Assembly: GCF_947623445.1 (NCBI RefSeq)
Contig: NC_135241.1
Coordinates: 312,501-376,500 of the forward strand
DNA from: Clavelina lepadiformis
Taxonomy: Eukaryota > Chordata > Ascidiacea > Aplousobranchia > Clavelinidae
Reading direction: 5' to 3'
Length of the DNA: 64,000 nucleotides
Part shown: positions 961 to 27,464 of the stretch, one piece after another
How the letters are laid out: every line of letters starts with the position of its first letter
Numbering within the stretch: the first letter of the stretch is position 1
Program-made: the position numbers and the translations under genes
The notes under the pieces: model-generated
Databases searched by the model: none
Told to the model about the DNA's origin: nothing
Seen by the model: the letters and a program-made list of their open reading frames with translations, nothing else

Positions 961-3900
961 ATCGATGAGATCAACCTGAGTTGGAATAAGTTCGGTGATG
1001 ATGGAGCTTTGTCATTATCAAAATGTCTCCACAACATCAGGAGACTGGATGTTCATAGTTGTAACATCGGTGATGTTGGAGTGAAAAGTTTATCAGAAGC
1101 CATCGAACATCTTCCACAACCGGTGAGTGTCAGAGGCACTTAACTTGAGTGAAAAACGATCGAGTGAAGTAATAAATAGTAGATATATTAAGTACATAGG
1201 CTGGATGCGTGTGACGTCATAAATTTAATACAAATGATTTGTTATTGCGAAACAAAATTGTAAATATTACGTCATAATATTTCCGTAAAAAGTCTGATTA
1301 CGTTTTTTACGGTAAGTTACTGTGTTTTACGAACGGAAACAAAAGTTATCTATAAAATGGTCTTAAGTTGGCATATATCACGTATCATTCACTAGATGGC
1401 GATAAGTGCTGTTGCTATGCAACAAGACGCTTTCTTTCTCCGGATTACAAGTAGGCGACATCAAAGAATGACGTAAACTCTGTTGCGTTTACGTTCGGTT
1501 TGTAAGTTTGCCGCAGTGCTTCCATGTTGGTTAACCTGTGGCCATTGCTTTTCACACACAACGGTATCATCTGAGTTCGGTTGCTACCACGAGGAAGCGC
1601 AGCAAACGATCTTTTTCCTTCTTCTGGATTGTTTGGTAGTCTAAGGGTGGGATGCACCAAACCCGATCAAGTACAGATTACTTTTGATCCGCGATTAACT
1701 ACTGTTGATCTTTACTAACGGTATGCACCAGCGACGATCAGAGATAATCCAGGATTAAAATAAGGCATTTAATCCTTGAATTTAATCCTACTGACGAGGA
1801 GGTTTAAGTCTAGATCAATGTGATTAATTGATGAAAAGCAAGTTTATGGAAGTATTGGAGAGTGCTATAGGTTGTGTATTGGAAGTGCTACTAGCCTTTG
1901 AGCCAATATTATATGCAATGGCAGTAATACAGTACTACAGAAGGGTAGGCCTATCAACCGTTGAACTTATATGGCAGGTAGCAGAGGCTTGCGTTGGTTT
2001 ATTTCATTATATTATTAATTGCAACCTACATAGCAGAGAGATTAAGCGTTAGCTAGATTTTTTATGGAATACAAATAAAACTATGAGACCAAGCATCGGT
2101 TAACCTTTGTTAACATAGATTAGTTACCTTACCTTATGTTACCTTGTTTATTGTGTCATTTTCTGTCAGATTTAGCAATAAAACGTTGCAAATATTATAA
2201 TGGATTGTATTGAATTTATTGAGCATTTTATTGAGACACCACCGAGAAGAAACATAAAAGACAGACTAAACCCATTTGAAAATTTTACAGAAGAGCAATT
2301 TCGCGAACGTTTTCGCTTTAGAAAGGATTCAGTTCTTCAACTTTTGGGGATGATTTCCTTTGATTTAGAGCATGGCACAAATCGTAATCACTGCATACCA
2401 CCAATTCTTCAACTTGTCACTACTTCACGGTTTTATGCCGCAGGACATTTTCAGCGGACAGATGGTGACTTAATCGGCATTGACCAATCCAGTGCTTGCC
2501 GGGTTATTCATAGAGTAACACGGGCAATTGCCACCAGACACGAGCAGTTCATAAGATTTCCAAGCAATCAGGATTTGAACAACGTGAAGTTTCATTTTAA
2601 AAATACTGTATTGCTCAGTTTCCAGGTGTGCTAGGAGCAATTGACTGCAGTCATATTCCCATTAAAAGGCCAAGTGGAGACAATGGAGAACTTTATCACA
2701 AAGGTTATTTCTCGATCAATGTTCAAGCAGTCACAGATGCAAATATGTGCTTCACTAATATAATCTGTAGATGGCCTGGATCTACACACGATTGCAGAAT
2801 GTTTGACAACAGCTCACTTTCCTACAAATTTGAAAACAATCTTCTTGATGGCTTTTTGTTAGGAGATGGAGGCTGATGAGATTTTGCTGGAGATGAATTC
2901 TGCACAGAGTTCCTTCCAAGCAGTGGACTTGGATTCCAAAGATTTACTATCAGTTTTTTTGCATTCAATTACACTAATGTAATTAGGCTTATTCATTAAG
3001 TCAATAAAAATGTTTTTTTCCGTAACTGTAAAATTTACTCTCCTTCCCATGATGAAAATTACACCACCTGAACCGCACAAAACTTTTCAAAATTAAGTCT
3101 AGGTTTATACACAAACATAACAGTATTATAAATTCAGCAACACAATGTATAGAACTGTAGAACCATTCAGAACTTTCTTCCGTTCAAATTTACCTGTACG
3201 TGTACAATTTAAACAGTCTATCGGCAGCCTAGCCTAGTTACAATTTTAAAATATTACGAACTTTATGGTAGCCTATCTATAATACCAAAGCCTGAGCTTG
3301 CCTGATATATCCCTGATAGCCTAGGCCCTAGGGCAACATCTGGGTTAGGATCTCATAAACAAATAGACACCCAGGCTAATGATGCCTAATGCCAATCAAC
3401 AAACTAATGATGTCCATTGCTTATAAATCTGTCAGTAAGTTCTTGGCCTATCTATCTCTGTATTAACTTATGCTGTGATTGCTGTCTTCAACAATGGGAT
3501 GTCATGCAGTCTGCATATAATCTCGGTTCCAAATCATTAGGCTTTTAACGTTGATCAAGATCATGCGTCGATCACATGATCTTGACCAGATCGGACTTGG
3601 TGCATGACAATTAAGGATCCACTTAAAACCTGGATCATATGATCTTGGTTTAATCCTTAATCCTTGATCAAGTTGATCTGTTGTGGTGCATCCCACCCTA
3701 AAAGCTTTATGTTGCTCATTATAATTTCCATTGCAGTTGTGCACGCAACACTTCCTTCCCATGTTGACAATTAGCTTAAATTATGCCGTAATCACTGCCT
3801 GAGAATTTGATTAATATTTTTAGTTTAAAGTAGATTGTCAATACGTTGAGTCTGCGTACATTAAATGCGGGTTCGGCAGCGTATGAAGTAAAGTTTCTCC

Positions 3901-6900
3901 TCCAGTTCTTGTGCATACAACCTATGTGTGCAAATAAGTTGTGTAGTTGGTTGTTGCTCAACTTCCATTGCGGTGGCTATGCTATAGCCCCAGACTAGTG
4001 TCATCTATCGATTTACCAACTGACCCTTGCTTCTTAATCTCAAGTTATTGCCTTTACCTGTTTATTTAAATTATGGCGTCTACAAACCAACAAACTTAGG
4101 TCACCCGCAATCGTAGTTTCTCTTCCTTACTGATATAACCGTAAAGTTCCAAACTTAAAATAATGAAATTTTTATTGAACTGTTTCATTAATTATCATGA
4201 GGTTTCCGACAATTTAAATTTACAGACATCTCTATAGAGAACAAAAACCTTATGACATAATAATAAACTTCCAGTTTTTCAATATCATTGTGCGATATCC
4301 AGATGAATTATAGCAAGCCATGCAACATGTGCAAAATGAGTAGAAACACTTCTGCTGTTATGACGTCATAATATGTTTTGTACCAAACAACGAAACATTG
4401 AAAAAATTTTTCATGTAAAATTTGATTCTGTTTCCAACTAATTCATTAGTTTAAATTTAAGTTTATTCACAAAATATTCCAGATCGATGAGATCAACCTG
4501 AGTGAGAATGAGTTCGGTGACGATGGAGCTTTGTCATTATTAAAATGTCTCCACAACATCAGGAGACTGAATTTATGGAATTGTAACATCGGTGATGTTG
4601 AAGTGAAAAGTTTATCAGAAGTCATCGAACATCTTCCACAACCGGTGAGTGTCAGAGGCACTTAACTTGAGTGAAGAACGATCAAGTGAAGTAATAAATA
4701 GTAGATATATTAAGTACATAGGGTCTACAAACCAACAAACTTAGGTCGCCCGCAATCATAGTTTCTTTTCCTAACTTATATAATCGTAAAGTTCTTAACT
4801 TAAAATACTAACTTTTCTATTAAACTGTTTCATTAATTATCATGGGGTTTCCGACAATTTAAATTTACAGACATTTCCATTGAGAACAAAAGCCTTATGA
4901 CGTAATAATAAACTTCCAGTTTTTCAATATCATTGGTCGATATCCAGATGAATTATAGCAAGTCATGCAGTATATGCAGAATAAGGAGAAATTCTTCTGC
5001 TGTTATGACGTCATAATATACATTCTACCAAACAACGCAAGATAGAAAAAATTTCCTGTAAAATTTGATTCTGTTTCCAACTAATTCATTGGTTTAAATT
5101 CAAGTTTATTTACAAAATATTCCAGATCGATGAGATCAACCTGTGTGGGAATAAGTTCGGTGATGATGGAGCTTTGTCATTATCAAAATGTCTCCACAAC
5201 ATCAGGAGACTGGATGTTGGTTGTTGCGATATCGGTGATGTTGGAGTGAAAAGTTTATCAGAAGCCATCGAACATCTTCCACAACCGGTGAGTGTCAGAG
5301 GCACTTAACTTGAGTGAAGAACGATCAAGTGAAGTAATAAATAGTAGATATATTAAGTACATAGGCTGGATGCGTGTGACGTCATAAATTTAATACAAAT
5401 GATTTGCTATTGCGAAACAAAATTGTAAATATTACGTCATAATACGTCCGTAAAAAGTCTGATTACGTTATTTATGGTAAGTTACTGTGTTTTACGAACG
5501 GAAACAAAAGTTATCTATAAAATGGTCTTAAGTTGGCATATGTCACGTATAATTCACTAGATGGCGATAAGTGCTGTTGCTATGCAACAAGACGCTTTCC
5601 TGTTTCGGGATTACCAAAGTAGGCGACATCAAAGAATGACGTAAACTCTGTTGCGTTTACGTTCGGTTTGTAATTTTGCCGCAGTGCTTCCATGTTGGTT
5701 AACTTGTGGCCATTGCTTTTCACACACAACGGTATCATATGAGTTCGGTTGCTACCACGAGGAAGCGCAGCATACGATCTTTTTCCTTCTTCTGGATTCT
5801 TTGGGAGTCTAAAAACTTTATGTTGCTCATTATAATTTCCATTGCAGTTGTGCACGCAACACTTTCTTCCCATGTTGACAATTAGCTTAAATTATGCCAT
5901 AATCACTGCCTGAGAATTGGATCTATATTTTTAGTTTAAAGTAGATTGTCAATACGTTGAGTCTGCGTACATTAAATGCGGGTTTGGCAGCGTATGAAGT
6001 AAAGTTTCTCCTCCAGTTCTTGTGCATACAACCTATGTGTGCAAATAAGTTGTGTAGTCTGTTGTTGCTCAACTTCCATTGCGGTGGCTATGCTATAGCC
6101 CCAGACTAGTGTCATCTATCGATCTACCAACTGACCCTTGCTTCTTAATCTCAAGCTATTGCCTTTACCTGTTTATTTAAATTATGGCGTCTACAAACCA
6201 ACAAACTTAGGCCGCCCGCAATCATAGTTTCTCTTCCTTACTGATATAAACGTAAAGTTCCAAACTTAAAATACTGACATTTCTATTGAACTGTTTCATA
6301 AAATCATGGGATTTCCGACAATTTAAATTTACAGACATCTCTATAGAGAACAAAAGCCTTATGACGTAATAATAAACTTCCAGTTTTTCAATATCATTGT
6401 GCGATATCCAGATGAATTATAGCAAGCCATGCAATATGTGCAAAATGAGTAGAAACACTTCTGCTGTTATGACGTCATAATATGTTTTGTACCAAACAAC
6501 GAAACATTGAAAAATTTTTTATTGTAAAGTTTAATTCCAATTAAGTTATAATTAAGTTTCCAACTAATTCATTAGTTTAAATTTAAGTTTATTTACAAAA
6601 TATTCCAGATCGATGAGATCAACCTGAGTAGGAATAAGTTCGGTGACGATGGAGCTTTGTCATTATCAAAATGTCTCCACAACATCAGGAGACTGGATGT
6701 TCATAGTTGTAACATCGGTGATGTTGGAGTGAAAAGTTTATCAGAAGCCATCGAACATCTTCCACAACCGGTGAGTGTCAGAGGCACTTAACTTGAGTGA
6801 AGAACGATCAAGTGAAGTAATAAATAGTAGATATATTAAGTACATAGGCTGGATGCGTGTGACGTCATAAATTTAATACAAATGATTTGTTATTGCGAAA

Positions 6901-8697
6901 CAAAATTGTAAATATTACGTCATAATATCTCCGTAAAAAGTCTGATTACGTTATTTATGGTAAGTTACTGTGTTTTACGAACGGAAACAAAAGTTATCTA
7001 TAAAATGGTCTTAAGTTTCCCTATGTCACAAATCATTCACTAGATGGCGATAAGTGCTGTTGCTATGCAACAAGACGCTTTCCTTCTCGGGATTACCAAA
7101 GTAGGCGACATCAAAGAATGACGTAAACTCTGTTGCGCTTGCGTTCGGTTTGTAAGTTTGCCGCAGTGCTTCCATGTTGGTTAACCTGTGGCCATTGCTT
7201 TTCACACACAACGGTATCATCTGAGTTCGGTTGCTACCACGAGGAAGCGCAGCATACGATCTTTTTCCTTCTTCTGGATTGTTTGGTAGTCTAAAAACTT
7301 TTTGTTATTTATTATAATTTCCATTGCAGTTGTGCACACAACACTTTCTTTCCATGTTGACAATTAGCTTAAATTATGCCGTAATCATTGCCTGAGAATT
7401 GGATCTATATTTTTAGTTTAAAGTAGATTGTCAATACGTTGAGTCTTCGTACATTAAATGCGGGTTTGGCAGCGTATGAAGTAAAGTTTCTCCTCCAGTT
7501 CTTGTGCATACAACCTATGTGTGCAAATAAGTTGTGTAGTCTGTTGTTGCTCAACTTCCATTGCGGTGGCTATGCTATAGCCCCAGACTAGTGTCATCTA
7601 TCGATTTACCAACTGACTCTTGCTTCTTAATCTCAAGTTATTGCCTTTACCTGTTTATTTAAATCATGGCGTCTACAAACCAACAAACTTAGGTCGCCCG
7701 CAATCATAGTTTCTCTTCTTAACTTATATAACCGTAAAGTTCCAAACTTAAAATAATGAAATTTTTATTGAACTGTTTCATTAATTATCATGGGGTTTCC
7801 GACAATTTAAATTAACAGACATCTCTATAGAGAACAAAAGCCTTATGACGTAATAATAAACTTCCAGTTTTTCAACATCATTGTGCGATATCCAGATGAA
7901 TTATAGCAAGCCATGCAACATGTGCAAAATGAGTAGAAATTCTTCTGTTATTATGACGTCATAATACAAATTCTACCAAACAACGAAACATTTAAAAATT
8001 GTCCTGTAAAATTTGACTCTGTTTCCAACTAATTTATTAGTTTAAATTTAAGTTTATTCACAAAATATTCCAGATCGATGAGATCAACCTGAGTGGGAAT
8101 ATGTTCGGTGACGATGGAGCTTTGTCATTATCAAAATGTCTCCACAACATCAGGAGACTGCATGTATGGGATTGTAACATCGGTGATGTTGGAGTGAAAA
8201 GTTTATCAGAAGCTATCAAACATCTTCCACAACCGGTGAGTGTCAGAGGCACTTAACTTGAATATAAACAAAACCGCCTCGATCACAACACGACCATCCT
8301 TCTGTGCCATATAAGGCGCATATGTGCACCAGTTATCTCAGGCGCAATCAGTGGTGCTTTGTGGTGTACAAGATGTCATCTAAAGTTAAAATTAAAAAGT
8401 CGTTGATCAGTCAATAAATTTGTTGGGTTCACGCATTATAACAAAACACTATAAAGCTTTCATAAATAACTCAGCCAAAACGTTGAAGCCGTGCTAATGT
8501 AGAAATGTTAGATATTTATAGAATTGTGTTAAAGTCAACTATTTTGCGGGTTGGAAAATTTCACATAAAACTTTTTTTGTGATGTTAATTACAGTTTATT
8601 TACATTTGCGTAGAAGCCAGAAGTGGAAGGAGTTGATCTGGTTGAAAGCAGTGACGATGAAGAACTTGTGAGCAGCAGCAAAAGTAATCACGAATGA
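961..8697 (+). CDS. 3' part of a leucine-rich-repeat protein gene (NLR-like LRR exons), 5' end outside window
   Basis: Six phase-0 exons are visible: 961-1122, 4483-4644, 5126-5287, 6609-6770, 8074-8235 and the last exon 8614-8697 ending in TGA. The first five are each 162 bp and encode 54 residues, with the pattern INLSxNxFGDDGALSLSKCL followed by LxxxxCNIGDVGVKSLSEAI. This is two ribonuclease-inhibitor-type LRRs per exon, as in NLRC3-like proteins. Each has the acceptor AAATATTCCAG and the donor CCG|GTGAGT. The last exon gives a 27-residue acidic, serine-rich tail starting KPEVEG. The NACHT or other N-terminal domains would lie left of base 1, so calling it an NLR is inference. LRRs of this kind usually act in ligand recognition. 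Copies differ mainly at the variable LRR positions (for example LDVHSCN, LNLWNCN, LDVGCCD, LHVWDCN), as expected for a recognition surface. All copies are open, but whether every exon is used in one transcript cannot be seen. Confidence 0.7.
2200..2876 (+). pseudogene. HARBI1-like transposase remnant (DDE nuclease, truncated)
   Basis: The first open stretch (2200-2634) contains FRFRKDSVLQLL and a helix-turn-helix-like segment with SSACRVIHRVTRAI. The second (2628-2876, in another frame) contains FPGVLGAIDCSHIPIK and WPGSTHDCRMFDNS, which carry the first two acidic residues of the DDE triad, and ends at FLLGDGG. HARBI1 proteins are about 350 residues and continue past LLGDSGY to a third acidic residue, which is absent here. 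A frame change lies near 2605 (one base missing or two extra). There is no catalytic potential left. Confidence 0.85.
2859..3050 (-). pseudogene. Myb/SANT-like (NAIF1-type) DNA-binding protein remnant of the Harbinger element
   Basis: Starting at the methionine at 3050, the frame reads MGRRVNFTVTEKNIFIDLM, then KKTDSKSLESKSTAWKELC. This is the pattern of the Myb/SANT-like domain in NAIF1 and in the second protein of Harbinger transposons: a tryptophan-bearing helix and the K-T-D-x-x-x-x-x-x-K motif. In intact elements this protein binds the ends and brings the transposase into the nucleus. Only about 60 residues remain before it runs into the transposase remnant. Confidence 0.7.
5580..5873 (-). 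CDS. THAP-like zinc-finger reading frame, best-preserved copy in the array (97 aa)
   Basis: The protein begins MGRKCCVHNCNGNYNEQHK, followed by VFRLPKNPEEGKRSYAALPR. This matches the start of THAP-type (C2CH) DNA-binding zinc fingers: two cysteines, then the phenylalanine-proline motif. The usual central tryptophan and the closing C-x2-H pair are not recognisable; a C and an H lie six residues apart instead (CVKSNGH). THAP fingers occur both in host regulators and in P-element-type transposases. It lies antisense in an intron of the LRR gene. A short open frame beginning MEVEQQQTTQL lies just upstream on the minus strand (around 5955-6080) in each unit. It may be a remnant of a captured gene or transposon rather than an expressed gene. 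Confidence 0.4.
   Translation of the reverse strand: MGRKCCVHNCNGNYNEQHKVFRLPKNPEEGKRSYAALPRGSNRTHMIPLCVKSNGHKLTNMEALRQNYKPNVNATEFTSFFDVAYFGNPETGKRLVA
7026..7351 (-). pseudogene. THAP-like copy, decayed
   Basis: This copy has the same sequence as the THAP-like frame at 5580-5873, but its start reads MERKCCVHNCNGNYNK and then meets a stop. The remainder (open from 7220 down to 7026) still encodes the KSNGHRLTNMEALRQTYKP segment. It sits at the equivalent place in the next repeat unit. Confidence 0.5.
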
Positions 8698-21937: not shown

Positions 21938-24419
21938 ATGATTTACTCCGAAGAAGAGTTGAAATTTCGTCTGCGTTTGTCTTTGCAGTTCATCTCTCAA
22001 TTCAAACACTTCGGAAAACATTACATTATTGTGAGTGTGTGATTGTGTTAATATTTCAGCACAGTTCTGCCTGTGCCAGCATAACTAGACAAAGCTGAGA
22101 ATTTATTCTTGAATATGGTTATTTGTAGGAATATTTTACTGACAATCACTGGGAAAAATTGCCGCAGACATGGCAGGAAACTTTGCAGGATGAGGATCTG
22201 TCGTCTCTTGCCAATTGTCTTTTGATCCCAGGAGCACCAGTTTATGGGTATAGTGGATAATAGAAATCTTAAGTGGTTTGACAACTTTTATTTTCAAGTT
22301 GCTGTTACTTACAGGTTGACACAAGTGTGGCCTCTTTCACTGTTGGCATTTCGTAAACTATCGCACTTTCTCTCAATTAAGCGCGAGTTGAGCTCAGGTT
22401 TGTGTCATCGTCATCTTTGTCGTCAGTTCATATGAGATCCACCTTTGACAGTTTGTTTGCATTTTGTCGAATTTTTGTGCTCAGGTCGCATACTGAATGA
22501 AAACCACAGAAAATCAGAAAAAACAAAAAATAAATTGGTGGATTATGTTCACTGGAAGCACATGAAGCCAAAGAAAAGACACGAAATTTCTTCATTGTCA
22601 GAAGTACTATGCCAGCTTTATTTATTGTTACATCGATCAACAACTCAATTGTTTGTTTGACGACTGACACATTAACACCCTGATTTTGTATTTGAGGTTA
22701 TAGCAAAAATCTCAAGTCAGTCAAAGGCAGCTTCTATCATTGTGAGTGTACAAGGTGGTCTGAAATTTTAATCTCATTTGATTGACACTCACGATAGACG
22801 CCATAGAAGTTAGAAACTGAACTTTGACCTTTACAGGATGTGGGGTCAGGTCAAGGTCACCTCTCACGTATTTTGACTTTGAATTACAAACTTTCCGTGA
22901 AATCGATTGAACGAGAAGAAAGACTTGTGAAATGTGCTCGGAAGTTTGATGATGAGGTTTTACAAAAAATAGTGGACTTCGAGCGAAAGGTGAAATACGA
23001 TTAGCGCTAAATGTGGTTCTCATGAAGCTGATGCATTCTTTTCGGTTTTGTTAGATTCATAAAATTTTAAATAAATTGTTTCAAATCTTTTTTATATTTT
23101 CATGGATTGATCCCAGGAAAGTGACTCGTGGCAACCACAGATGCCCACACACCTGCAAATGTCCCTCTCACCTGATGTGGAGAGCGAAACATTTTTAGAA
23201 GATTTACGGAGTGCAGCTGGTAGCAACTCTGATTATCGATTTTGTTAAGTTTTTTAGAAGCTTTAAATATGATGTTTATGTTTTAAAGGTGGAAACTCGG
23301 CAGATAATCGTCACTTCCTGTTGACGGGCTTGCACGCGTGTGGTGACCTCAGTGCAACGATGGTGAGACTCTTCAAGGAAAGTTCCTCGATTAAATCTCT
23401 CATCTCTGTCTCCTGCTGCTACATGAAACTAACAACTGATTGCATCAACAATGATGCTTGTGATGTCACAAGGTCATCACAGATTTATTACCCAATGAGT
23501 GATTATGTGAAGAGTTTGGAGAACCACGAACTCTGTTATGAGTTCAGGAAACTTGCTTGTCACTCAAACGAGGATTATCTCAGGAAAGTTGAAGGTTCAT
23601 CAACTTTTATTCATAATTTTTTAAACATTGATGCCGGCACATAGCAAGTACTCCTGACGCAGATGTCTATGAATTAAGAAATCACATAATATTCTAATGT
23701 TTCTAGAAGATCCATCAAGTTTGAAAGGTCAATGTTATCGAGCCATGCTTGAAGTTTTGATTCGAAGATCACATCCAGAACTAATCCGCACTGGAGTAAA
23801 GACGATTAAAAACTGCCATCGTCTGTCATTTCTAGAGTAATTTATCTCGTGAAGTTTGTGGTATAGCTACTGTAGGCACTAAAAGCTTGAGTGGGAATGC
23901 TACGTTTGCAATATTTTGGCAATTTGCTATTTATACTGATCTCGTCTAAAATTTGTAAATTATCTACTGTAAAAGAAATTTTAACTGAAAATAAAACTTC
24001 AGCAAACTCACGTTGAAGTCACCATGTTTAGAAGATACTTCCACAAGTGTGTGATAATGTCTTTTTAATCCAGATACTCAAAGAAAGCTTTTAAAAAGTT
24101 GGGCCTTTCATGCCCAGATGAAGCGACCATAGAGAGCAATGAAATGACTGAAATGCTTCAAATGTGGCCGAATGTTGTCAAACTTTTCATGATTTCATTG
24201 GTGCTGGCTCCAGTGGTTGAGTCGATAATTCTTCTTGACCGAGTTCTCTACTTAAAGGAAAATGGTGAGATCTTCATGAATTTACTAATTAAATTTTGTT
24301 GCAAAATGCAATTTTCTCAACTTTCTTCAGGTTACGAAAGTGAACTGCTCTCAATTTTCGAACCGCTTTTATCTCCGAGATGTTTCGCAGTCGTTGCCAG
24401 CAAGAATGAAGTTGAATGA
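21938..24419 (+). CDS. METTL25B/RRNAD1-like methyltransferase-fold protein, copy A (476 aa)
   Basis: Eleven exons: 21938-22030, 22129-22247, 22315-22397, 22485-22603, 22697-22741, 22837-22989, 23117-23219, 23289-23594, 23707-23836, 24074-24264 and 24331-24419; phases agree at every junction. Features in order: HMKPKKRHEISSLSE, then a SAM-binding glycine loop DVGSGQGHLSR (about residues 154-164), TGLHACGDLSATMVRLF, VSCCYMKL, and the C-terminal LDRVLYLKENGYESELLSIF..LSPR. This order, and the length, match METTL25B (RRNAD1; human about 475 aa). METTL25 is longer. The target of this family is poorly known, so activity is inferred only from the glycine loop. Copy B lies 403 bp downstream in the same orientation with nearly identical exon structure. 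It is too far away for a tunicate-style operon. Confidence 0.9.
23261..23508 (+). repeat. Gene-conversion tract shared with 26521-26768 (member in copy A)
   Basis: I count 6 differences over 248 aligned bases with no gap between this segment and 26521-26768. The match covers the end of intron 7 and the first 220 bases of exon 8. It stops abruptly at GATTATGT, beyond which the paralogues differ at many positions. Confidence 0.85.
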
Positions 24420-24821: not shown

Positions 24822-27464
24822 ATGTTGTCAACTGTGGAAGATTTGAGGAATCATTTACAAGCCAGCATTATTTTTCTCAACCAGTTCAAACATCTCACTG
24901 ATGCCTACATTATTGTGAGTATCACTGAATGCATTGTATGTTGAAATTTTACAGGAAAAATGTTGTCAAGACACTGGATTCAATAGAAATACTGCTGCGT
25001 TTGTAATGAATACCTCTGAATGTCATTGCATTAATCTAGGAATCATACAAACCGACCCTGGTTTATTTTACTTTCTACATTGAGCTTTTAGTGCAGTTTG
25101 CCACCCCAGTGGTCATTTGTCACTTACTGGCCGCCGTTGAAGTTCTGTTACAGAGTTGCTAGAAACATTCATTGGAGTTGGAATGTCGTATGCTTGTGTG
25201 CTATTGCCATTGAAACCATTACTTTGAATTTTATTCAGGAATATTTTACCGACAGCCACTGGGAGAAGCTTCCTGAATCATGGCGAAGTTTTCTCGATGA
25301 TTTTGAACCCCCGGATCTGGCCGAACAATTACTCAGTGAGGAAATAAAGAATGGAAGGTGATGTCATAAGCATGATGTGATTAACTTCATACAACTTGTA
25401 TCATTATCCACATGAAAGCTGTGATATTGGCATGGACTTTGAGCTACTGTGGGAACAGAAAATTGGTTAAAAATTTTCAACAATTGTTTCAGACAAACTT
25501 CGGTCTGTCCGCTGTCACTTCTCTGCTTCAAACGATGTTCCCGTCTCTTTGCCCTCAAACGACCCACTCTTCATTGTAAGTCGCAAGTTCCAGTTCAATG
25601 TTGTTGAGATTATTTGATATGATTTTGATTTTACATGAAGGTTCAAATAATGCAACCGGTCAGAATAAACTTTTGAAGCATATTTATCGGAAGCACATCT
25701 CTCCTAAGAAACAACACGAAATAAGCATCTTGGCAAAGGTTTGTTTCCGGAAATAATTTTGTTTTCTGAGCTTCTTTCATTTTTATCTAATTGCAGGTCA
25801 TAGAGAAGACCTTCCTGGAATCAAACTGCTCACATGTCATTGTAGGTTGTTATGTGTTAGTTTGAGGCTAGAAGAAGAAAGTATTGTTCCTCTCATGTAA
25901 TTTCATATACTGGGGCACTTTATAAACGAATATTTGTGGCAACTGATTTATTTGATCTTATTAAGGACGCGGGCTCAGGTCAAGGTCACTTGTCGCGACT
26001 TTTGACCCTGGGTTACGACCTTCCTGTGATAGCACTCGAGCGTGAAGAAACTTTTCTTGAAGAGGCGAGAAAGTTCGACGTAGAAGCAATGAACCACGTC
26101 AAGAAAGTTTGTGAGAAAGTGAGAATAAAGCGACTTGACATATGATGACAAATTTGAAGGACCGTTTCTGCCAGCACAATTGTTATAACGGACTTCAACT
26201 TAAAATTTTTGTCTCCCAAAATATTTAAATCTCCGGCTGATTTTCCAACACTTTTTCACCACAGGAAGGTGAGTTGAGGCATCCCCCCATGCAAGTCCCT
26301 ACTCACGTCCATTGCAGCCTTCCACCAGACGAGGGAGCTAAACACTTTATACAAAAACTTTCGGATGCAACGAGGAAGAAAGTTGGTCAGTGAAGTCTCT
26401 GCTCCTGGTTCTTTAATTTGCAAGAATTTTAATTTTGTGACATAACTTAGCGGTCTTACTTCGTTGAACAGATCGTTGCCAGGAAGGTGACGAGATAGCA
26501 GCAAACTTCCTGTTGACGGGCTTTAAATATGATGTTTATGTTTTAAAGGTGGCAACTCGGCAGATAATCGTCACTTCCTGTTGACGGGCTTGCATGCGTG
26601 TGGTGACCTCAGTGCAACGATGGTGAGACTCTTCAAGGAAAGTTCCTCGATTAAATCTCTCATCTCCGTCTCCTGCTGCTACATGAAACTAACAACTGAT
26701 TGCATCAACAATGATGCTTGTGATGTCACAAGAGCATCACATATTTATTACCCAATGAGTGATTATGTTGGATCAATAGCAAATCACCAACTTCCTTATA
26801 AAGCGAGGGAGCTTTCATGCCACGCAATAGAAGATTACAGGCAAAGATTGAAAGGTTTCAAAGATTTTAATTCACATCCGTTGTCCAGTGACATCTTATA
26901 ACGGGTATTTCCATGTTCAGAGAATGGTCCTCATCTAAAGATGCATTGCTACCGCGCTGTCCTGGAGGTTCTGTTGAGGAGGCAGCATCCGGATTTGATC
27001 CGAGCCGGAGTACGAACGGTGAAGAAAGCATACAACCTGCCCTTCACTGAGTAAACTATTTTTGTTTCAGAAAATTTAAAGAATTAATTGTTAAGATGTC
27101 TAATCTGATATTTACATCCGAAAAGGTATGTTAAAAGAGCATTCCAGCGACTTAATCTACCCCCTTGTGATATAACAATGCTGTGTTCATCAAACACTGA
27201 AGAAATGTTGAATGACTGGCGACACCTAGTGACCTACTTCACCCTATCCCTTCTACTTGCACCAGTCATCGAGAGCGTCATTCTCATGGACAGATTACTT
27301 TATTTGAAAGAAAACGGTAACTTCATCATCTCTAAATCTCACATTAAACATGCAATGCACTGACAAGCGATATCTGCGCAGGGTTTTGCAGCGAGATATC
27401 CTCCATATTCGAACCTCTTCTATCCCCTCGGTGCTTCGTCATAATCGCAACAAAGGAATCATGA
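24822..27464 (+). CDS. METTL25B/RRNAD1-like methyltransferase-fold protein, copy B (473 aa)
   Basis: Eleven exons: 24822-24914, 25239-25357, 25493-25575, 25641-25738, 25797-25841, 25966-26118, 26265-26385, 26549-26854, 26921-27050, 27126-27316 and 27382-27464. All phases match, and 8 of 11 exon lengths equal those of copy A. Landmarks: KHISPKKQHEISILAK, DAGSGQGHLSRLLTLGYDL, GLHACGDL, SCCYMKL, LMDRLLYLKENG and FEPLLSPRCF. Outside exon 8 the two copies are clearly diverged; across most of exon 8 they are almost identical, which marks a gene-conversion event. That event left a displaced piece of the original exon 8 (with its own acceptor at 26472) in the intron. Splicing to the newer acceptor at 26548 keeps the frame, while using the old one would soon reach a stop. 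The stop codon is 5 bases from that of UTP15 on the other strand. Confidence 0.9.
26521..26768 (+). repeat. Gene-conversion tract shared with 23261-23508 (member in copy B)
   Basis: The left edge is visible as a repeat of exon sequence: CTTCCTGTTGACGGGCTT occurs at about 26506 (old exon 8 start) and again at about 26573 inside the inserted copy. The inserted block brings its own intron end (TGATGTTTATGTTTTAAAG). Copy A therefore looks like the donor. Confidence 0.85.

Follow-up and report, generated by a model that had tools for sequence, protein, structure and literature searches.

In lampreys, the variable lymphocyte receptors (VLRs) arise when incomplete genes are completed by somatic DNA rearrangement of leucine-rich repeat (LRR) cassettes, whose concave positions are variable. 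Four further systems come close to the locus analyzed in this work, an array of LRR exons at the left end of a 64,000-nucleotide stretch (the window) of the genome of the ascidian Clavelina lepadiformis. The LRR exons of human NLRP3 each measure 171 bp (28 + 29 amino acids), encode two LRRs, preserve the reading frame and can be skipped (Hoss et al. 2019, PMC6642158). The Podospora NACHT-WD genes het-d and het-e possess near-identical repeats that undergo exchange, with positive selection on four residues per repeat at the interaction surface and a measured polymorphism of the repeat number (PMC1805685). The LRR exons of brown algal ROCO genes, whose products are LRR-ROC-COR proteins, are tandem and frame-preserving, 72 bp long, in phase 2 and encode one LRR; exon shuffling, selected concave sites and splice variants have been reported (PMC11378527). 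In the zebrafish NLR-B30.2 family, the LRRs were judged not particularly variable, and a high ratio of non-synonymous to synonymous substitution rates (dN/dS) is found in the B30.2 domain (PMC4852459).

The genome contigs examined amount to 209 Mb (95 contigs), and the window corresponds to positions 312501-376500 of the contig named here C2; coordinates given without a contig name are those of the window. Judging from the order of its predicted domains, the array forms the 3' portion of a gene for a NACHT-LRR (NLR) receptor, hereafter gene A. The best explanation overall, and a probable one, is an NLR gene with seven interchangeable two-LRR exons, each exhibiting eight diversified positions, and with a role in recognition. 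An earlier note, made from the letters of the window alone, had pointed out five 162-bp phase-0 exons, each encoding two LRRs and ending at the same donor. All five are present and open, and are followed by a likely terminal exon:

961..1122, plus strand: two-LRR exon A3, phase 0-0, 54 amino acids (open frame, splice borders)
4483..4644, plus strand: two-LRR exon A4 (open frame, splice borders)
5126..5287, plus strand: two-LRR exon A5 (open frame, splice borders)
6609..6770, plus strand: two-LRR exon A6 (open frame, splice borders)
8074..8235, plus strand: two-LRR exon A7, the last of the array (open frame, splice borders)
8614..8697, plus strand: likely terminal coding exon, phase 0, encoding KPEVEGVDLVESSDDEELVSSSKSNHE and a stop, acidic tail (position, reading frame, alignment)

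Each of A3-A7 is bordered by ttccag at its 5' end and gtgagtgt at its 3' end, and encodes a 25-residue and a 29-residue repeat, as split at the repeated motif. The count of five holds for the window, but the gene totals seven two-LRR exons, of which the five are exons 3-7; exons 1 and 2 (C2:309441 and C2:311455) fall outside the window, on its left. Further upstream, the NACHT/winged-helix exon occupies an open frame at C2:304756-306525, ~6.0-7.7 kb left of the window, and a likely short exon 5' of it is conserved in all three genes of the family described below. The NACHT exon donor is in phase 0 in the three genes, the exon ending with AAG and the intron starting with gtgagt. At the other end, the tail exon stops with TGA at 8695-8697, homologous blocks are present at its start in both paralogues, and it is probably spliced to A7. 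Since the NACHT donor, every LRR exon and the tail exon are all in phase 0, the frame is preserved whatever the number of LRR exons, and the cassettes are indeed frame-neutral, as had been proposed from the window. The note had also described nearly identical tandem units. The repeat structure is real but the start-to-start spacings are uneven (3522, 643, 1483 and 1465 bp), because one unit holds a 2054-bp Harbinger-like insertion and another is short. To note, the region of the tail exon in one paralogue, B2 (~C2:615980-616100, minus strand), continues into a short tandem repeat whose codons specify acidic and serine residues.

A genome search with the exon yielded 17 close copies (80-100% identity; 150 of 153 candidates scored), all of them on C2, the next match being at 59%. 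Seven are on the plus strand, from 309441 to 320735, and ten on the minus strand, from 590561 to 622170; the two paralogues B1 and B2, 270-310 kb from gene A, have five two-LRR exons each. The 17 exons are all 54 codons long, stop-free and in phase 0, with intact borders. A profile search of the 204 kb around them added one broken LRR remnant (C2:589426-589509, E value 1.4e-7), the remaining extra matches having E values of 0.04 or weaker. NACHT matches at C2:305074 (plus strand), 598635 (minus) and 629210 (minus) lie 5' of the three exon groups, on the same strands, within open frames of 590, 604 and 589 codons, none of which is interrupted. With these three frames as hmmscan input (the third as 580 codons), PF05729 (NACHT) is above its cut-off in all three, including C2:305074-305571, so that the NACHT domain that the note had suggested looking for left of the window is found there. 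NOD2_WH is likewise above its cut-off in the three paralogues, while NLRC4_HD2 is matched in each of them, each time below its cut-off. The order NACHT, then LRR exons, is shared by the three C2 genes, and LRR_6 is above its cut-off in the LRR exons. Among solved sequences, the nearest to the NACHT exon is NLRP3. The joined LRR exons match 46 of them; the top match is labelled only as a leucine-rich repeat protein, and ribonuclease inhibitor ranks fourth, followed by several NLRs. Elsewhere, 56 of the 97 NACHT matches listed lie on contig C4, where the interval from 0.3 to 5.4 Mb contains 54 and many are in 344-codon open frames; these appear to be another large NACHT family, of a different kind.

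The diversity of the exons is concentrated in eight codons (5, 7, 8, 10, 30, 32, 33 and 35), corresponding to x in the two LxLxxNxL motifs. They were picked from the general LRR motif after the C2 exons and the hint of the earlier note had been seen, and the C2 test is thus not blind; they were fixed before the sequences of a second set of exons, on contig C5, were examined, and were kept unchanged for that test. Among the 17 C2 exons (136 pairs), the eight codons carry 996.5 of the 1397.5 non-synonymous differences. The ratio of the proportions of non-synonymous and synonymous differences (pN and pS) is 1.56 in the eight codons and 0.41 in the other 46. The note had quoted the residues HSCN, WNCN, GCCD and WDCN correctly; its claim that changes cluster at the variable LRR positions is borne out by the per-codon tests, but not by the exon as a whole, as pN/pS over all 54 codons is 0.96 and the signal resides in the eight. 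Within genes, the ratios in the eight and in the other codons are 1.86 vs 0.32 for A, 1.57 vs 0.17 for B2 and 1.83 vs 1.23 for B1. The per-pair difference is 0.405 at bases 1-2 of the eight codons, 0.050 in the flanking intron and 0.045 at the other third bases, A7 being excluded from this comparison because it has no homologous flank downstream; tested by columns, the excess of the eight over the intron has a P of 2.8e-10.

The second cluster, on C5, comprises at least 53 full-length exons with 76-100% identity to a C5 query (150 of 152 candidates scored), in two stretches at 20.785-20.953 Mb (minus strand) and 21.346-21.626 Mb (plus strand). All 53 are 162 bp long, in phase 0, bordered by AG and GT, and devoid of stops. 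By position, they stand behind four of the seven NACHT exons listed there (15, 7, 15 and 16 exons), and the other three have no such LRR exons (97 of 137 NACHT candidates scored; one may be missing). Identity between the exons of C2 and those of C5 is no more than about one half (44-50% for most), and the two clusters are therefore separate stocks. One pair of C5 exons, at C5:21431740 and 21438252, 6512 bp apart, is identical over exon and flanks (302 bp), and 52 exons were accordingly analyzed. Half exons occur at the same 6512-bp offset (21434161 and 21440673), which points either to duplication in very recent times or to a duplicate created by the assembly. In the C5 set, the eight most variable of the 54 positions are the eight fixed on C2, a single set among 1,040,465,790 possible ones, with position 37 tying for the eighth place at two-digit precision. 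The pN/pS ratio reaches 2.58 in the eight codons, against 0.66 in the others. The difference is 0.395 at bases 1-2 of the eight codons, 0.203 at their third bases and 0.046 at the other third bases; the flanking intron differs by 0.225 upstream and 0.150 downstream, less than the eight codons (P 0.0006).

A home-made grid model, with a synonymous and a non-synonymous rate per codon on one tree, also singles out these sites. The posterior for positive selection exceeds 0.95 in C2 at codons 5, 8, 10, 32 and 33 (five of the eight), and in C5 at codons 3, 5, 7, 8, 10, 14, 28, 30, 32, 33, 35, 37 and 39 (all eight and five more). Removing the positive classes costs 14.6 (C2) and 44.8 (C5) in twice the log-likelihood difference. 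At the eight codons, the fitted synonymous rate averages 0.98 in both sets, and the non-synonymous rates are 1.8-7.5 (C2) and 2.5-12.2 (C5). Taken together, the sequence comparisons favor positive selection at the eight positions. An AlphaFold2 model of the unit, computed from 21 aligned exons (16 of the 17 from C2 and 5 of the 53 from C5), has a mean predicted local distance difference test score (pLDDT) of 87.9, with strands at residues 3-5 and 28-30 and helices at 12-25 and 38-49. Codons 5 and 30 fall at the strand ends in the model, and 7, 8, 10, 32, 33 and 35 in the loops that follow. The concave and ascending side of LRR proteins is their binding side, and the eight positions are expected, from the model and from this general feature, to lie at the ligand-facing surface.

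Several observations weigh against an NLR with diversity focused on these positions. Regarding the receptor itself, the NACHT search is not specific, with matches in 11 of 14 prokaryote control genomes, above the cut-off in three, and the NLR assignment hence rests on the full domain order. No N-terminal effector domain was found. A Death domain near the gene was sought and rejected, none of the nine matches in the genome being on C2 (the genome-wide search did not extend to CARD, PYD and the like). Pfam analysis of seven chosen upstream open frames left six without a match and one with a weak match below the cut-off (E value 0.096). The joining of the NACHT, LRR and tail exons by splicing is predicted from DNA. 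Regarding the focus, five C5 codons outside the eight (3, 14, 28, 37 and 39) also exceed 0.95, and the focus is not exclusive; strong purifying selection is detected by the site model at only two codons per set, and the model values are approximate, because recombination weakens tree-based site tests. The framework of B1 has a pN/pS of 1.23, and bases 1-2 outside the eight codons (0.033 in C2) are not significantly below the intron (P 0.15), so the constraint on the framework is not clear. On C5, the intron is more divergent than the third bases outside the eight (0.046), which weakens the intron contrast there. Finally, synonymous diversity is also raised in the eight codons: in the 17 C2 exons their third bases differ by 0.205 vs 0.046 at other codons, and pS is 0.232 vs 0.067.

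This last point bears on a mutation process aimed at the eight codons in place of selection. Such a process would also account for the roughly eightfold excess of bases 1-2 over the flanking intron, and the rise of pS is repeated on C5 (0.144 in the eight codons vs 0.049 elsewhere). Furthermore, codon pairs encoding the same amino acid differ in 28 of 334 cases (0.084) in the eight codons, vs 276 of 5869 (0.047) elsewhere. Against it, the third base is invariant in all 17 C2 exons at four of the eight codons, 5 (C), 7, 30 and 33 (T), where bases 1-2 vary, and much of the third-base change is borne by codons 10 and 32, where it alters the amino acid as well. The fitted synonymous rates, close to one, contrast with the high non-synonymous ones. 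Selection on the amino acids thus appears to be the better account, and aimed mutation is disfavored and very improbable.

Are these genes maintained? A decaying or silent family, with repeats alike merely through recent copying, would fit the broken remnant at C2:589426-589509. However, the 70 full exons of both clusters are all open and change is centered on the same positions in two separate clusters. The dN/dS of the NACHT exon is below 1 (0.48 for A-B1, 0.43 for A-B2 and 0.63 for B1-B2, with dS of 0.09-0.12). The decayed gene with stops in conserved domains that the note had envisaged is rejected, given the open state of 17 of 17 C2 LRR exons and three of three NACHT exons, and a family in decay is very improbable.

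The recent amplification proposed in the note receives partial support from introns, with a reservation for B2. Upstream introns are 92.7% identical within A, 91.4% within B1 and 88.9% within B2, compared with 88.6% (A-B1), 87.1% (A-B2) and 86.9% (B1-B2) between genes, over mean matched lengths of 164 to 547 bp. Units of A, B1 and, slightly, B2 are thus closer within their gene and have been multiplied or homogenized there, the difference being small for B2 (88.9% vs 86.9-87.1%). The exon tree mixes the exons of the three genes, mostly with low support; intron trees (380 bp upstream) are unreliable because the copies differ by large insertions, and 60-bp flanks were used instead. Exchange between units is visible in B1, whose exon 2 shares its first LRR with exon 3 and its second with exon 1, and on C5, where one first-LRR protein half is paired with three different second halves. 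The pairwise homoplasy index (PHI) test for recombination, with windows of 20, 30 and 60 bp, gives P values of 0.14, 0.02 and 0.001 for C2 and of 0.32, 0.12 and 0.0015 for C5. This dependence on window size counts against the best explanation, and leaves exchange between copies likely but not proven.

In NLRs, the LRRs contact the ligand and the NACHT domain oligomerizes. By analogy, the product of gene A would most likely be an intracellular sensor whose 14 LRRs build one ribonuclease-inhibitor-like horseshoe; a ligand touching the concave side would free the NACHT module to oligomerize and signal. The receptor would recognize varied non-self ligands, and all seven exons would normally be spliced in together. 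The exon units would multiply and swap halves by unequal crossing-over or conversion, which is partly shown, and their modularity would serve evolution, by gain, loss and exchange of LRR pairs without damage to the frame, more than the choice of splicing.

Cassettes could conversely be picked at the RNA level, a single gene supplying a repertoire through transcripts or cells that join different exons; the skipping of exon 5 in human NLRP3 is a parallel. All exons agree in phase, length and splice borders, and on C5, by position, 15, 7, 15 and 16 exons stand behind single NACHT exons; chains of at least 30 ribonuclease-inhibitor-like LRRs would exceed one turn of a horseshoe. Identical phase and borders, though, follow from exon duplication alone, and the 7, 5 and 5 exons of A, B1 and B2 fit one horseshoe; the proposal is unlikely. 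A broader proposal is that at least seven NLR genes (three on C2 and four on C5) hold two stocks of 17 and at least 53 frame-neutral cassettes, each with eight diversified contact residues, that exon content would differ between individuals and that C5 exons would be chosen per transcript. It is put forward tentatively, as a minor possibility; if true, an animal that lacks antibodies would have an innate repertoire particular to each individual.

The ligands might also belong to the animal's own kind, the receptor serving allorecognition or reading self markers instead of microbes, with balancing selection keeping the variation. The NACHT family, the near-identical repeats, the few diversified surface residues and the exchange of repeats resemble what is reported for het-d/het-e (PMC1805685). 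An arms race with microbes predicts the same pattern equally well, and own-kind recognition is considered rather improbable. The preferred reading remains that of a sensor of varied non-self ligands.

One more element lies within the array, in the intron between A3 and A4:

1645..3698, no strand assigned: DNA transposon of 2054 bp, which we take to be Harbinger-like, bounded by perfect 15-bp terminal inverted repeats, with TAA next to each end

It contains two partial open frames, one of which matches DDE_Tnp_4 over about half of the profile, and two other repeat units (near 5803 and 7285) lack it at the corresponding site. It is a passenger, outside the receptor. Similar antisense open frames are found in the unit introns at 3502-3780, 5580-5891 and 7026-7304 (minus strand); the frame at 5580-5891 is similar to the beginning of a THAP domain (E value 0.017, below the cut-off), and the exon may thus have carried a transposon-like fragment along in its amplification. 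Further into the window, 23260-23508 and 26520-26768 form a 249-bp direct duplication with 97.6% identity, within two similar open frames. Scans of the window for RNA families and tRNAs gave no matches, and a search for COX1 gave none either. The 16-base sequence that we take to be the Ciona spliced leader occurs 1483 times in the genome (836 + 647), whereas the reversed control gives 0 and 0, which suggests an ascidian. Of the 100 matches listed, many fall in a tandem array of 745-bp period that covers at least C6:12139467-12206206.

How animals lacking antibodies match varied microbes, or tell their own from foreign tissue, is an open question. The two NLR clusters, with 70 open cassettes between them, reveal the diversified positions in the genome itself, introns and synonymous sites serving as internal yardsticks, and make exon choice, copy-number variation and ligand contact directly testable in a chordate. 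A literature search, limited to titles and the openings of abstracts and with incomplete coverage, found no precedent for such focused diversification of LRR exons in an animal NLR. Each component is already known; the union of them in an animal NLR, not found described, is the new part.

Variable LRR cassettes are shared with lamprey VLRs, but the exons here stand in line, with splice sites and open frames. Like NLRP3, the genes combine a NACHT exon with two ribonuclease-inhibitor-like LRRs per frame-preserving exon (17 of 17 on C2, 53 of 53 on C5). The exons are 162 bp long (25 + 29 amino acids) instead of 171 bp, so that the genes work like an NLRP without being filed there, and, unlike in NLRP3, the copies within a gene are near-identical save for the diversified positions. 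The zebrafish NLR-B30.2 genes are likewise an expanded chordate NLR family, with LRRs on separate exons in varying number and gene conversion; here, by contrast, diversification affects the LRR positions, and an acidic tail exon appears to close the gene (no B30.2 search was made). The brown algal ROCO genes also exhibit tandem frame-preserving LRR exons with positively selected sites, whereas here two LRRs are encoded per phase-0 exon, behind a NACHT exon. With het-d/het-e are shared the NACHT family, near-identical internal repeats, repeat exchange and a few surface residues per repeat under positive selection; those genes are fungal and carry WD40 repeats, while here LRR pairs lie on separate exons, in an animal and in one assembly. 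The ascidian genes would thus be an animal instance of an evolutionary design known from fungal NACHT-WD and brown algal LRR receptors.

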